Source: Prolixibacteraceae bacterium
Lineage (GTDB): Bacteria; Bacteroidota; Bacteroidia; Bacteroidales; Prolixibacteraceae
NCBI GenBank assembly: GCA_028683385.1
Contig: JAQUIJ010000015.1
Span: 69,781-132,729 of the forward strand
Reading direction: 5' to 3'
DNA length: 62,949 bases
A model generated the notes under the pieces. It was not told the origin of the DNA and did no database searches. It saw nothing but the letters and a program-made list of their open reading frames with translations. Shown here piece by piece: positions 564 to 7,063 of this stretch; position 1 is the stretch's first letter; each line of letters starts with the position of its first letter. The translations under genes and the position numbers were made by a program.

Positions 564-3155
564 TTAAAAATCGTACCTAAATACAATTTCATCGTTCTCA
601 ACCGCAACCATCACTTTAGTGCGGCCTTCCATTCTTCCTGAAAGTATTTCCTTCGACAAATCGTTAATCAGGTATTTCTGCAGCATCCGCTTTACCGGAC
701 GAGCTCCATGAGTTGGATCATATCCAACAGCAGCCAGCCAATCAACAGCTTCATCCGACACTTCAATTGTAAATTGATTATTCGGGATACGCTTCAAAAT
801 CAGGTTAATTTGCAATTTCACAATTTCATGAATATCTTTCCTTGTCAATGGAGTAAACATGATTACGTCGTCGATCCTATTCAGAAATTCAGGAGAAATG
901 GTTTTCCTAAGTAGCTCAAACAAATCGGTGCGAGTTTGCTCTTCAATTTCTGCCAAATTCCGTTCATTCATTTGCTCAAAACGATCCTGAATCAAATGCG
1001 ATCCGATGTTAGAGGTCATGATAATTATTGTATTCTTGAAATTGGCTACACGCCCTTTATTATCAGTTAAACGACCATCGTCCAAAACCTGAAGTAACAC
1101 ATTGAAAACATCCGGATGTGCCTTTTCAATTTCATCGAAAAGAATTACAGAATAAGGTTTCCGGCGAACAGCTTCGGTTAACTGACCACCTTCGTCATAT
1201 CCAACGTATCCGGGAGGCGAACCAATCAATCTGGTCACCGAGAATTTCTCCTGATATTCCGACATATCGATTCGGGTCAGCATATTTTCATCGTCGAACA
1301 GGTATTCGGCCAAAGCTTTTGCCAGCTCAGTTTTTCCAACACCGGTAGTTCCAAGGAAAATGAAAGAGCCGATAGGACGTTTCTCATCCTGAAGCCCTGC
1401 CCTACTTCTTCTCACAGCATCAGAAACAGCACGAATCGCTTCATGCTGTCCAATCACACGCTGGTGAAGTTCATCTTCCAAATGCAAAAGCTTTTCGCGT
1501 TCACTCTGCAACATTCGGGCAACCGGAATACCAGTCCACCGTGATACAATTTGTGAAATATCTTCAGCATCAACCTCTTCCTTAATCAGATGCTGATCCT
1601 TATTGTTGCTTAATTCAGCTTTCAATTTCTCAATTTCAGCTTCGGATTCCCCGATTTTACCATACCTGATTTCAGCCACCCGACCAAAATCACCGGCACG
1701 TTCAGCCTGATCGGCTTCCAGTTTCAGAGATTCGATTTCCTGTTTCTTTTGCTGAATTCCATCAATCAGCGATTTTTCGAGCTGCCACTGCGCCCTAAAT
1801 TTCGATTGCTCTTGTTTTAGATTGGCAATGTCTTCATTCAAAACAGAAAGTTTTTTCTCATCTTTTTCGCGTTTGATGGCTTCCCGCTCAATTTCGAGCT
1901 GCATAATCTTGCGGTCAATTTCATCCAATTCCTGCGGAACCGAATCCATTTCCAGACGCAAACGCGCTGCGGCTTCATCCATCAGATCAATTGCTTTATC
2001 AGGCAAAAACCGTTCGGTAATGTACCTTTGCGACAGTTCAACCGAAGCAATAATCGCTTCATCTTTGATTCGCACCTTGTGGTGATTTTCGTACCGCTCT
2101 TTCAATCCACGCAAAATCGCAATGGCGCTTAATGTATCTGGTTCGTCAACAGTCACAATCTGGAAACGACGCTCCAGCGCTTTATCCTTTTCAAAATATT
2201 TTTGATATTCATTTAGTGTAGTTGCACCAATGGCCCGAAGTTCTCCACGGGCCAGAGCAGGTTTCAGGATGTTTGCAGCATCCATCGCTCCCTCACTTTT
2301 ACCAGCACCTACTAACGTGTGAATTTCATCGATAAACAGAATGATTTCGCCGTCGGCAGCGATAACCTCGTTGACAACCGCTTTCAAACGTTCCTCGAAT
2401 TCGCCTTTATATTTGGCTCCGGCAATTAAAGCACCCATATCGAGCGAAAAAAGCTGTTTTGTCTTTAGGTTTTCAGGCACATCACCACGAACAATTCGTT
2501 GCGCCAAACCTTCTGCAATGGCAGTTTTCCCGGTTCCCGGTTCGCCAATCAAAATCGGGTTATTTTTTGTTCTTCTGGATAAGATTTGAAGAATACGACG
2601 AATTTCGTCGTCGCGCCCAATAACCGGATCAAGTTTTCCGTCACGAGCTCGTTGATTCAGGTTGACGGCAAATCGGTTAAGTGAATCGAATTTATCTTCA
2701 GCACTCTGGCTATCCACTTTGGCTCCTTTTCGTAGTTCTTTTACTGCAATTTCAAGTTCTTTTTTTGAAACTCCAGAATCCTTCAGAAGATGGCTAATGG
2801 TATCGCCAGTTTCCAGCAGCCCCATTAAAATATGCTCAACCGAAACAAACTGGTCGTTCATTTCCTGCATGATTGCGATTGACTTCTGCAAAGCCTTATT
2901 GGCATCAGTCGATAAATAAGGTTCGCCTCCGGTAACTTTCGGATACGAATCTACGATACGGTCGAGCGCCTGCTGAATCGCAACCGGGTTTGAACCCAGT
3001 TTTTTCAGCAAAAATCCAACTACGTTTTCTGCTTCATGAAAAAGGCCTTTCAAAACATGTCCCGTTTCAATGGCCTGCTGTTGCTTGCCCTGAGCCACAT
3101 CAAAAGCATGTTGAATAGCTTCCTGCGACTTAATGGTGAAATTATTAAAGTTCAT
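564..3155 (-). CDS. clpB: ATP-dependent disaggregase ClpB
   Basis: This is the Hsp100 AAA+ chaperone that threads aggregated proteins through a hexameric pore together with DnaK. The sequence shows the double N-terminal Clp repeat (about 1-145), NBD1 with Walker A GEPGTGKT (about 205) and Walker [10 protein letters not shown], the long charged middle coiled coil (about 400-520), and NBD2 with Walker A GTTGVGKT (about 600) and Walker [11 protein letters not shown]. The length of 863 residues is normal. The frame can be extended 8 codons upstream to 3179, but [13 protein letters not shown] is the standard ClpB start, so I place it at 3155. It is cytoplasmic. Three minus-strand small-RNA candidates lie upstream, and the nearest ends about 230 bases before the start codon. 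Confidence 0.97.
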
Positions 3156-3387
3156 ATATCTGGTTTTAACTGTTTCCAAAATATTGATAACGAATGGGAG
3201 CGATCAAATGGTTTGCCAATATCGTTTTCGCACTAACACGAGACAAATTGACTGGGAATGAATCCTTCTACGGAAAATATTTCAGAAATAATCAAAATCG
3301 CACGACTTTTTGACATAAAAATTCATTTTTCGGACATTTAAAGGCGAGATTTGATTCAAATAATATGATAAATATTAATAAATGCGC

Positions 3388-3472
3388 AAAAAAAAGGATG
3401 AATCTCTTCATCCTTTCCTCACAAAACCAAACTTATCTATGAAAAAAAACTAAACTTCTACTTCTATTGCCT
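3388..3472 (-). ncRNA. Candidate small RNA, copy 1 of 3
   Basis: Reading on the minus strand there is a TATATTTG box (3484-3477), then about 85 transcribed bases, ending in a perfect 10-bp hairpin (AAAGGATGAA/TTCATCCTTT, loop 3403-3406) and a run of eight T. The body carries a T-rich stretch (TTTAGTTTTTTTTCATAG) and a G/T-rich segment (AAGTTTGGTTTTGTGAG) shared with the copies at 3593 and 3812. The start position is inferred from the promoter box. No open reading frame of meaningful length is present. Function unknown; the repeated promoter-body-terminator unit is the evidence that it is a gene. Confidence 0.65.
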
Positions 3473-3476
3473 GATA

Positions 3477-3521
3477 CAAATATACCACATGCTTAAGTTA
3501 ATGCGCCTAAATGAAAGTTAA
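3477..3521 (-). promoter_or_regulatory. sRNA copy 1 promoter with two TTAAC boxes
   Basis: On the minus strand the -7 box TATATTTG spans 3484-3477. TTAAC boxes lie at 3501-3497 and 3521-3517, 12 bases upstream of the -7 box and 15 bases apart. The same distances recur at copies 2 and 3. Confidence 0.65.
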
Positions 3522-3592
3522 AGAACTTTAAATCATGACCATCACTTTTCAGGGTAACTTCGAGACCGTTTAAGAATAAAAATCGGCTAATG

Positions 3593-3677
3593 AAAAAAGG
3601 ATGACCCCTGCCATCCTTTTCTAACTAACCAAACCTATTTCTATGAAAAAAAACTAAACTTTTATCTTTCCATTGCT
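3593..3677 (-). ncRNA. Candidate small RNA, copy 2 of 3
   Basis: Same design as copy 1, with TATATTTG at 3689-3682, an inferred start near 3677, and a body with the conserved T-rich stretch and ATAGGTTTGGTTAGTTAG. It ends in a 9-bp hairpin (AAAAGGATG/CATCCTTTT, loop 3604-3611) and six T. The body is clearly similar to copy 3 over about 50 bases just before and within the hairpin; the loop and the 5' end vary more. Paired changes near the loop keep the stem intact, as expected of a functional RNA. Confidence 0.68.
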
Positions 3678-3681
3678 TGTA

Positions 3682-3726
3682 CAAATATACACACCAACTC
3701 TGTTAACACATCTGAATCAACGTTAA
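3682..3726 (-). promoter_or_regulatory. sRNA copy 2 promoter with two TTAAC boxes
   Basis: The -7 box TATATTTG is at 3689-3682 and TTAAC boxes are at 3706-3702 and 3726-3722 (minus strand), with 12-base and 15-base spacers identical to the other two copies. Between the boxes is a weaker TTCAGA match that keeps a period of about 10-11 bases. Confidence 0.65.
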
Positions 3727-3811
3727 AGAAGATTAAAACTATCGAAAACACACAATCGGCAGTTTTTCTTCTGATTTACATTCGCATCGCTAGAATCAAA
3801 ATTAAAAGAAC

Positions 3812-3905
3812 AAAAAAAAGGATGGCCCCAACCATCCTTTTCTACCTAACCTAACCTATTTCTATGAAAAAAACCTAATCTGTGTTATTACTTGCTTCTA
3901 GCTAC
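3812..3905 (-). ncRNA. Candidate small RNA, copy 3 of 3
   Basis: Minus-strand unit with TATCTTTG at 3917-3910, an inferred start near 3905, a body of about 94 bases, a perfect 10-bp terminator hairpin (AAAAGGATGG/CCATCCTTTT, loop 3826-3831) and eight T. It shares with copy 2 the segment TTTTTTTCATAGAAATAGG and a following GGTTAGGTTAG-type stretch. The 5' third differs most among the copies. Confidence 0.65.
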
Positions 3906-3909
3906 ACAA

Positions 3910-3964
3910 CAAAGATAAATCACCGTTCAGTTAAGATGTTTAAACGATAGTTAAGTAATGTTAA
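3910..3964 (-). promoter_or_regulatory. sRNA copy 3 promoter with three TTAAC boxes
   Basis: The -7 box TATCTTTG is at 3917-3910. TTAAC boxes are at 3934-3930, 3954-3950 and 3964-3960 (minus strand). The first two keep the 12- and 15-base spacers of the other copies; the third adds a 5-base-spaced direct repeat typical of OmpR/PhoB-type sites. Confidence 0.62.
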
Positions 3965-4165
3965 GATTTCCGAAAACGCGATTTGTGAGCATTTCTGAAA
4001 TAAAATTTCAAGCAAAAATATATTTTGAAAAGGGACAAGCAAAAACAATTAATTCAACATACTATTGATTTACCTGAATTACAGAATTTCTGACCGATAG
4101 CAATAAAAACCCATCAACATTAAATTAAAGTTAAGAAAGTGCTTTTAGCTTGATAAACGAATATA

Positions 4166-4339: not shown

Positions 4340-7063
4340 ATGACAAAGTACGTTTACACGTTTGGGAATGGTGCAGCTGAAGGAAAAGCTGATATGAAAA
4401 ATTTACTTGGAGGTAAAGGTGCAAACCTTGCAGAAATGAACCTGATTGGTGTTCCTGTTCCTCCCGGATTCACTATCACTACTGATGTTTGTACCCTTTA
4501 CAATAAACTGGGTCGTGACTACGTGGTCGAACTTATTAAAGCTGATGTTGAGGCTGCAATTGCCCAAGTTGAAGCACAAACCGGTGGCAAGTTTGGTGAT
4601 TCTACCAATCCGCTTTTAGTTTCAGTTCGTTCAGGTGCACGTGCCTCGATGCCCGGGATGATGGATACCATTCTAAACCTCGGATTAAACGACACTGTGG
4701 TGGAAGGCATGGCAAAAAAGACCGGCAATCCACGTTTTGTTTGGGATAGCTACCGCCGTTTTGTTCAAATGTATGGCGATGTCGTTCTCGACATGAAACC
4801 AACATCAAAAACTGATATCGATCCTTTCGAAGAAATTCTGGAAGAAGTTAAGCATCATGAAAATGTGATCAACGACAATGAGCTTTCAGTTGAAGCACTC
4901 AAAGAGTTGGTTACTAAATTTAAAGCCGCTGTAAAAGCAAAAACAGGTCACGATTTTCCTGAAAGTTCATACGAACAACTTTGGGGTGCTGTTTGTGCAG
5001 TATTCAATAGCTGGATGAACGACCGTGCCATTTATTACCGTCAGTTAAACCAGATTCCAGAAGAATGGGGGACTGCAGTTAACGTTCAGGCGATGGTATT
5101 CGGAAACATGGGTTTGACTTCTGGAACAGGCGTTTGCTTTAGCCGCGATGCCGGAACCGGTGAAAACCTGTTCAATGGAGAATACCTGATTAATGCACAG
5201 GGCGAAGATGTTGTGGCCGGAATCCGCACTCCACAGCAAATTACCAAAGAAGGTTCTATGCGCTGGGCTGTATTGGCCGGCATTTCAGAAGCTGATCGTG
5301 CAGCTAAATATCCATCACTCGAAGAAGCTATGCCTGCTATGTACAAAGATTTATTCGATATTCAGAATAAACTTGAAATGTACTTCAAAGACATGCAGGA
5401 TATGGAATTCACCATTCAGGAAGGCAAAATGTGGATGTTGCAAACACGCAGCGGGAAACGTACCGGAGCTGCCATGGTGCAAATCGCCATTGACATGCTG
5501 AAAGAGGGCCTTATTGATGAAAAGACCGCTTTACTCCGTGTTGAGCCTAATAAATTAGACGAATTACTTCACCCGGTTTTCGATAAAAATGCCATCAAAG
5601 CCGCTCGGGTTCTGGCTAAAGGTTTACCTGCTTCTCCGGGAGCTGCAACTGGCCAAATTGTATTCTTTGCCGACGAGGCCGAAGAATGGGTAGCTCAGGG
5701 TAAAAACGTAGTTTTGGTTCGTATCGAAACTTCTCCTGAAGACCTTCGTGGAATGAACGTGGCAAAAGGTATTTTAACTGCCCGTGGTGGTATGACTTCA
5801 CACGCTGCTGTTGTTGCACGTGGAATGGGTAAATGCTGCGTTTCAGGCGCAGGTGCTTTGCAAATCGACTACAAACTGCGCACAATGACCGTTGATGGTA
5901 AAACATTTAACGAAGGTGATTTCATCTCACTGAACGGAACCAGCGGCGAAGTTTATGAAGGTAAAATTGCGACCATCGATCCTGAATTGAGCGGTTACTT
6001 TGGCGAATTAATGACCATTGCCGATAAATATAAACGCATGGCTGTGCGCACCAATGCCGACACTCCAAAAGATGCACAGATTGCCCGCAATTTCGGCGCA
6101 CAAGGTATCGGACTGACTCGTACTGAGCACATGTTCTTCGAAGGCGAACGCATCAAAGCCATGCGTGAAATGATCCTGGCTGAGGATGTTGCAGGACGCG
6201 AACTGGCTTTGGCCAAATTGTTACCGATGCAGCGTAGCGACTTCGAAGGCATTTTCGAAGCGATGGCAGGTTACGGCGTAACCATTCGTTTACTCGATCC
6301 GCCATTGCACGAATTTGTTCCTCACGAAGAAGCCAACCAGCTTGAAATGGCCAAAGAAATGGGTATTTCGGTTGAACAAATCAAACAAAAAGTTGAAGGA
6401 TTGCACGAATTTAACCCAATGTTGGGACACCGTGGTTGTCGTTTGGGAATTACTTATCCCGAAATTACGGCCATGCAGGCTCGTGCCATTATCGAAGCTG
6501 CTATGAATTTAAAAGCTAAAGGTATTGATGCTCGTCCTGAAATTATGGTTCCACTTGTCGGAACTGTTGCCGAGTTGAAAAACCAGACCGAAATCATTCG
6601 CAGCGTTGCTGAAAAAGTGTTTGCCGAAAAAGGCGATCGTATCGATTACCAGGTGGGTACAATGATTGAAATTCCACGCGCAGCCTTAACTGCCGACCAC
6701 ATTGCTGCTGAAGCAGAATTCTTCTCTTTCGGAACCAACGATTTAACCCAGATGACTTTGGGTTACTCACGCGACGATGCAGGTAAATTCTTACCTGACT
6801 ACCTGAACCGTGGTATCCTGAAACAGGATCCGTTCCAGGTGATCGACCAGAATGGTGTTGGCCTTCTGATGGAAATTGGAGTGAACCGTGGCCGCGCAAC
6901 AAAACCAAACCTTAAAATAGGTATTTGCGGAGAACATGGCGGCGAACCAAGTTCAGTAGAATTCTGTGACAAACTGGGCATGAACTATGTAAGCTGTTCA
7001 CCATACCGTGTGCCAATTGCACGTTTGGCGGCTGCTCAGGCAAATATTAAACACAGTAAATAA
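4340..7063 (+). CDS. ppdK: Pyruvate, phosphate dikinase
   Basis: The enzyme interconverts pyruvate + ATP + Pi and PEP + AMP + PPi in the cytoplasm, usually serving PPi-linked glycolysis or gluconeogenesis in anaerobic Bacteroidota. The 907-residue length fits a full enzyme. The N-terminal ATP-grasp domain opens with GGKGANLAEM and has SVRSGARASMPGMMDTILNL. The swivelling phosphohistidine motif GGMTSHAAVVARGMGK lies near residue 486. The PEP-binding TIM barrel ends with SFGTNDLTQM and GICGEHGG, containing the catalytic Cys. The start MTKYVYTFGNGAAEGK is the usual one. The gene stands alone, with a strong terminator downstream. Confidence 0.98.
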   Translation: MTKYVYTFGNGAAEGKADMKNLLGGKGANLAEMNLIGVPVPPGFTITTDVCTLYNKLGRDYVVELIKADVEAAIAQVEAQTGGKFGDSTNPLLVSVRSGARASMPGMMDTILNLGLNDTVVEGMAKKTGNPRFVWDSYRRFVQMYGDVVLDMKPTSKTDIDPFEEILEEVKHHENVINDNELSVEALKELVTKFKAAVKAKTGHDFPESSYEQLWGAVCAVFNSWMNDRAIYYRQLNQIPEEWGTAVNVQAMVFGNMGLTSGTGVCFSRDAGTGENLFNGEYLINAQGEDVVAGIRTPQQITKEGSMRWAVLAGISEADRAAKYPSLEEAMPAMYKDLFDIQNKLEMYFKDMQDMEFTIQEGKMWMLQTRSGKRTGAAMVQIAIDMLKEGLIDEKTALLRVEPNKLDELLHPVFDKNAIKAARVLAKGLPASPGAATGQIVFFADEAEEWVAQGKNVVLVRIETSPEDLRGMNVAKGILTARGGMTSHAAVVARGMGKCCVSGAGALQIDYKLRTMTVDGKTFNEGDFISLNGTSGEVYEGKIATIDPELSGYFGELMTIADKYKRMAVRTNADTPKDAQIARNFGAQGIGLTRTEHMFFEGERIKAMREMILAEDVAGRELALAKLLPMQRSDFEGIFEAMAGYGVTIRLLDPPLHEFVPHEEANQLEMAKEMGISVEQIKQKVEGLHEFNPMLGHRGCRLGITYPEITAMQARAIIEAAMNLKAKGIDARPEIMVPLVGTVAELKNQTEIIRSVAEKVFAEKGDRIDYQVGTMIEIPRAALTADHIAAEAEFFSFGTNDLTQMTLGYSRDDAGKFLPDYLNRGILKQDPFQVIDQNGVGLLMEIGVNRGRATKPNLKIGICGEHGGEPSSVEFCDKLGMNYVSCSPYRVPIARLAAAQANIKHSK

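Follow-up and report, generated by a model that had tools for sequence, protein, structure and literature searches.

FopS (RF04319) comprises multicopy sRNAs of Bacteroides (Bacteroides thetaiotaomicron) that block translation of susC at the start codon, a repression that is antagonised by RbpB, according to the sections of PMC11697453 drawn on here. RbpB binding with relief of repression, and induction by bile salts, are among the criteria for FopS. Rfp18 of Flavobacterium psychrophilum is reported in PMC9723704 to be structured and to act on proteases, and on that published description it was judged to be a different RNA. GibS of B. thetaiotaomicron (RF04182) has an R1-type seed region (R1 is the covariance model used below) and start-codon targeting in common with the RNAs analyzed here, and is reported with a different promoter type and a second seed, as far as the consulted portion of PMC7366714 goes. 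The consensus of BTnc231 (RF04180) opens with ACGUUUUUUUCAUAGAGAUUUAG, the same core as in the present RNAs, but BTnc231 is longer and has additional hairpins. In Escherichia coli, OmrA and OmrB are adjacent paralogous sRNAs that are driven by a response regulator and repress TonB-dependent outer-membrane receptors; the analogy drawn here is to their way of working, with no sequence relation claimed, and in the present case a candidate activator is proposed.

The locus to be compared with these systems comes from a Prolixibacteraceae bacterium, described as a member of the soil or water Bacteroidota. All coordinates refer to the window, meaning the whole stretch of DNA analyzed, 62,949 nt in length. 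The locus probably encodes three paralogous trans-acting sRNAs, divergent relatives of FopS, that pair with susC start regions and would lower the expression of SusC operons. Among the papers that searches of the open-licence PMC literature listed, none describes such RNAs in Prolixibacteraceae or Draconibacterium in its title or abstract opening.

Organization of the array

The interval between clpB (564..3152, minus strand; TIGR03346 above cut-off, start codon chosen at 3152) and ppdK, for pyruvate, phosphate dikinase (4340..7063, plus strand; TIGR01828 above cut-off), carries three related minus-strand units, each with a TAnnTTTG box, a body of 86-95 nt, and an intrinsic terminator made up of a hairpin and a U-run. 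This bears out the preliminary description of the DNA, whose spacings of 205 and 228 bases apply to the upstream promoter parts; the repeat bodies themselves are 203 and 221 bases apart. The position of +1 was set 5 nt past the -7 box, with the box placed at -12 to -5 following the relevant part of PMC9723704. With 5' ends assigned in this way, copy 1 occupies 3387..3472 (86 nt), copy 2 occupies 3592..3677 (86 nt) and copy 3 occupies 3811..3905 (95 nt), all on the minus strand. On the same strand, the seeds are located at 3437..3449 in copy 1 (UUUUUUUUCAUAG, antisense to CUAUGAAAAAAAA), 3641..3653 in copy 2 (again UUUUUUUUCAUAG) and 3862..3873 in copy 3 (UUUUUUUCAUAG), and the terminator hairpins at 3392..3416, 3595..3620 and 3816..3841, respectively. 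The copies are not a product of chance, because copy 2, used as a query against its own genome, matches copy 3 (E 1.0e-19) and copy 1 (E 1.3e-15), and because relatives carry them as well. A second type, with GGUUUUGUGAG instead of GGUUAGGU ahead of the terminator, is represented by copy 1 and by many relatives. Each type is found repeatedly within the genus, and this suggests that they have kept sub-functions.

In the predicted folds of the three copies, the terminator is strong and the pairing toward the 5' end is weaker. Copies 1 and 3 leave most of the seed unpaired, and in copy 2 the seed is paired with that RNA's own 5' leader. The segment of the copy 2 leader involved in this predicted pairing, AUGGAAAGA, resembles a target start and is absent in copies 1 and 3; a built-in decoy is one possible role for it.

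Copies in the genome and in relatives

Two dispersed copies are present in the same genome, at C12:6511-6614 (R1 E 0.005) and C37:219164-219267 (R1 E 0.012), where the seed sits nearly at the inferred 5' end without the leader of the tandem copies. The genome therefore holds three tandem and two dispersed paralogs, and is multicopy in the manner of FopS. A BLAST search with copy 2 found matches at E<=0.01 in 34 of 61 genomes, its own genome counted. Searching the window together with the BLAST loci for a motif yielded 49 copies, and copy 1, which the motif missed, brought the collection to 50. The search motif was the core itself, and the conservation of the core in the alignment of these copies (A2) is therefore partly built in; independently of the motif, 44 of the 74 BLAST matches listed begin at query positions 40-52, which is the start of the core rather than the 5' leader.

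The covariance model R1 was then applied more widely, as the preliminary description had suggested for related genomes, and homologues were indeed found: 98 of 140 genomes of the family have matches at E<=1e-5. The corresponding value at E<=0.01, 133 of 140, includes bare terminators and is inflated, because three weak R1 matches inspected in the bacterium's own genome (L156, L157 and L160) are terminators without a seed. Good matches are lacking in G001 and G016. The highest count in a single genome was 16 matches (G133); part of these belong to a long tandem sRNA array at G133:C1:2455428-2457301. Across the order, 47 of 393 genomes had R1 matches at E<=0.001, many of them weak. In named genomes the core pattern was found at 19 loci, including Draconibacterium orientale, D. 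mangrovi, D. sediminis and Prolixibacteraceae MAGs, along with two MAGs labelled Chlamydia and Chitinophaga, which were taken as mislabelled bins. The neighbourhood was inspected at 80 loci, a number that includes same-place repeats and the two dispersed own-genome loci; ppdK was present at 64, clpB at 34 and both at 33. In Draconibacterium orientale, two R1 matches share one locus (L171) with clpB and ppdK.

The terminator stem was examined in A2, which contains 40 of the 50 copies, 10 having been excluded, most of them for incomplete or atypical ends. Pairing is kept in 98.8% of the 480 cells of the 12-pair stem, and 6 pairs are changed on both sides, values that were each reached in 0 of 500 shuffles; further pair types give a weaker signal, their number being reached in 39 of 500. 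The paired changes at homologous loci on which the small-RNA proposal had been staked in advance are present among the 40 aligned copies. The observation that the stem varies while pairing is kept holds up well, but taken alone it does not establish a regulatory RNA, because any conserved intrinsic terminator would be expected to show covariation. The tandem small-RNA genes of the preliminary description draw their support from several sequence features together, namely the promoter box, the conserved core, the covarying terminator and the conservation in relatives.

Promoters and phased TTAAC repeats

The -7 boxes, at 3477-3484, 3682-3689 and 3910-3917, have the TAnnTTTG form of sigma-A-type promoters in all three copies. 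The box alone proves nothing, because TAnnTTTG is no commoner in the window (74 occurrences) than in shuffles (mean 74.16). Repeats lie upstream of it in the promoter regions of copy 1 (3477..3531), copy 2 (3682..3736) and copy 3 (3910..3964), all on the minus strand. Each has TTAAC at 17 and 37 bp upstream of the box, and at 47 bp there is TTAAA in copy 1, TTAAT in copy 2 and TTAAC in copy 3. Among the 50 collected copies, 44 could be placed on a -7 box with enough upstream sequence, and TTAAC starts at 17 bp in 42 of them, at 37 bp in 41 and at 47 bp in 26, counts that are not independent, one genus having supplied many of the copies. In the promoter consensus, a TT at 27 bp fills the series of four 10-bp steps. 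The two dispersed own-genome copies retain TTAA[CG] at 47 and 37. Other families of the order contributed 25 R1 matches, 10 of which have TAnnTTTG within reach; all three repeats are present in two of those 10 (L195, L200).

In a 400 kb sample searched on both strands, pairs of TTAAC were found at 10-bp spacing once and at 20-bp spacing twice. The pattern TTAAC-N15-TTAAC-N12-TAnnTTTG, with at most one mismatch allowed, occurs at 4 sites genome-wide (one for the reversed control); one of the 4 is a mismatched site elsewhere and the other three are exact, and these exact occurrences in the genome are confined to the promoters of the three tandem sRNA genes. Direct repeats phased at 10 bp are usual at sites bound in tandem by response regulators of the OmpR/PhoB family. 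The TTAAC repeats are a new feature here, and we propose that they form an operator at which a dedicated activator would bind.

The ten typical FopS loci that were compared have no TTAAC at 17, 37 or 47. In these loci (L253-L262) the -7 box is closely preceded by a palindrome-like element, ATGTTNNNN[AG]ACAT, exact in 6 of the 10 and with one change in 2 more. It may be a candidate site for the FopS regulator.

SusC start regions as predicted targets

The conserved core of the sRNAs, UUUUUUUCAUAG, is antisense to CUAUGAAAAAAA. The preliminary description noted that multicopy sRNAs in other bacteria respond to stress; the findings here point to the SusC outer-membrane transporters as what is controlled. 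Predicted pairing was analyzed for the start regions (-40 to +30) of 38 SusC genes above the TIGR04056 cut-off, with starts taken as the first in-frame ATG, a few of which are possibly wrong. For comparison, 295 control ORFs, each at least 150 codons long, were taken from 20 stretches and from the window. The median best duplex energy was predicted as -22.55 kcal/mol for SusC vs -18.0 kcal/mol for controls. When each sRNA was compared with 60 dinucleotide shuffles of itself, the median z values for copies 1, 2, 3 and the dispersed type were -1.64, -1.99, -1.88 and -2.31 with SusC, and 0.04, 0.01, -0.09 and -0.03 with controls. The 86 controls that start with MK gave intermediate medians of -0.47, -0.44, -0.60 and -0.24 in the same order. 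The position of the duplex is uninformative, because the start codon lies inside it in 254-272 of the 295 controls as well as in 36-38 of the 38 SusC genes.

The sharpest result came from the A-run that follows the start codon, the U7-8CAU seed being complementary to AUG plus this run. ATG with 8 or more A's behind it opens 14 of 38 SusC genes; with at least 7 A's the counts are 20 of 38 for SusC and 4 of 295 for controls, and with at least 6 A's they are 22 of 38 and 11 of 295. When only MKK starts are considered, at least 7 A's occur in 20 of 23 SusC genes vs 4 of 18 controls. The SusC counts are not independent because the genes are paralogs, and the A-run may have an additional use in translation itself. 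Complementarity to susC translation starts, which is one of the FopS criteria, is predicted both from the duplexes and from the AUG-A8 count.

The sRNAs could be real and yet target mainly signal-peptide or lipoprotein genes with CUAACUAAACC-like leaders before the AUG, SusC being one part of the regulon, but we regard this as unlikely. Among the control ORFs, those that pair best are mostly signal-peptide-like and have CUAACUAAACC-like leaders, GGUUUGGUUAG is the second conserved block of the sRNAs, and CTAAACCAA-N2-20-ATGAAA occurs at 5 genome sites vs 1 for the reversed pattern. A broad signal-peptide regulon does not readily account, however, for the stronger predicted pairing of SusC over MK-starting controls with all the sRNA types compared (p 6.3e-5 to 8.6e-8), or for the finding of AUG-A8 in 0 of 295 controls.

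In one SusC subgroup (L067, L068, L071), the predicted pairing extends over about 50 nt, partly with the leader of copy 3, at -39.3, -36.0 and -33.5 kcal/mol. The ortholog set of one SusC subgroup in the genus comprised 30 loci, 25 of which were used; five were left out because they ran into a contig end, had no available sRNA, or gave a match that did not run from the start. Among these orthologs, 23 of 25 had z<=-2 vs mononucleotide shuffles. Own-genome sRNA-SusC pairs were better than the foreign median in 14 of 25, giving no co-evolution signal in this set.

Two other observations concern possible partners. The signal-peptide-like genes L110, L119, L120, L121 and L123 have a CTAAACCAA-like leader before the ATG that is complementary to the second conserved block. 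A single target with long antisense pairing was also considered and dropped: the antisense 20-mer ACCTATTTCTATGAAAAAAA, with at most 3 mismatches, occurs at six places, two of them inside the array, and the two others inspected (L063 and L065) correspond to a ten-codon ORF and to no clear gene start.

Relationship to FopS

According to the preliminary description, its author knew of no named sRNA family of this form in the Bacteroidota. FopS is one, and two of the three copies are matched by the FopS model at scores below the curated cut-off. At Rfam gathering scores there was no match in the window. An E-value scan of 801 bases matched FopS to copies 3 and 2 over their full length, at 36.6 bits (E 0.0012) and 33.5 bits (E 0.0047), with no match to copy 1 up to E 10; all three copies fall short of the FopS gathering score of 56 bits. 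The other models scored below their thresholds as well, at 19.0 bits for GibS (gathering score 115) and 27.3, 21.7 and 13.3 bits for BTnc231 with copies 2, 3 and 1 (gathering score 80.4). When 14 related loci were scanned at the Rfam cut-off, one passed as FopS (L215, 56.1 bits). Across the order, with Bacteroides ihuae as positive control, the FopS model found matches at E<=0.01 in 67 of 247 genomes, 44 of them above the cut-off; the genome studied here gave two sub-threshold matches, and two genomes of the same family in this sample (G023, G032) gave none.

Like FopS, the array has several copies with a UUUUUCAU(A/G)G core, predicted as largely single-stranded in copies 1 and 3, then GGUUA and an intrinsic terminator; the core is antisense to susC start regions, the promoters are of sigma-A type and belong to the individual copies, and the genome encodes an RRM-1 protein. 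Unlike FopS, the tandem copies carry a 5' leader of about 20-30 nt ahead of the seed, and TTAAC direct repeats take the upstream place where most of the ten typical FopS loci have the palindrome-like element. Judged by its sequence, the array is FopS-like in form and partial score and is not a member by the Rfam criterion. The earlier interpretation is right in kind, but it overlooked a known family.

An independent origin, with convergence on the FopS form since both must match SusC starts, seems improbable to us. The score below the Rfam cut-off, the different upstream elements, and the concentration of similarity in the part fixed by the target would all fit convergence, but the FopS alignment also covers the linker and terminator, spanning 71 of 71 positions, L215 fits both the R1 and the FopS models, and tandem matches occur among FopS loci too (e.g. 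G356, G271, G304). It is very improbable that there is no RNA regulator at all and that the units are a repeated plus-strand leader-like hairpin with a four-codon ORF (MKKN/MKKT) or a susC-start leftover: the plus strand of each copy does read ATG-AAA-AAA-AAC-TAA or a near form, but 3200-4165 has no plus-strand TAnnTTTG, the U-run and the covarying stem fit transcription from the minus strand, and the conserved promoter is oriented to that strand.

The single RRM-1 protein of the genome has 161 aa and scores above the NF058537 cut-off. The sole RRM_1 match, at L218:1231-1716 on the minus strand (G000:C23:671211-671420), shows an RRM domain followed by a long, glycine-rich, arginine-containing tail. 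On these sequence features it is a candidate for the RbpB role.

Proposed mechanism and implications

From the observed sequence and its conservation, the promoter and terminator signals and the predicted complementarity, we infer transcription of divergent FopS relatives, their pairing in the cell with susC messages and the resulting repression, together with an activator and a role for the RRM-1 protein. Each copy would be transcribed from its own sigma-A-type promoter and end at its intrinsic terminator, and most likely a candidate activator, acting via the proposed TTAAC operator, turns on these promoters. The U7-8CAUAG seed would pair with the susC start codon and the following A-run (AUGAAAAAAAA), and the regions adjoining the seed would extend the pairing to the 5' leader and, in one SusC subgroup, to the signal-peptide codons. 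Binding of the sRNA would block ribosome access to the start codon, so that SusC transporters and their operons fall and import capacity goes down. The RRM-1 protein has a candidate role in this circuit.

A more general version is offered tentatively: beyond Bacteroidaceae, an activator on 10-bp-phased TTAAC repeats may drive private sRNA promoters whose products silence the SusC repertoire as a class via AUGAAAAAAAA, kept at SusC starts as an address code that marks outer-membrane importers. The present Rfam cut-off for FopS misses this branch in this genome. The AUG-A8 at SusC starts is a nucleotide signature that may define the regulon, and the TTAAC repeats are a candidate operator at which an activator of the FopS type may act; the sections of PMC11697453 drawn on here leave that activator unnamed. 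If the proposed scheme is true, post-transcriptional control of glycan importers would extend past Bacteroidaceae, to the family that includes Draconibacterium.
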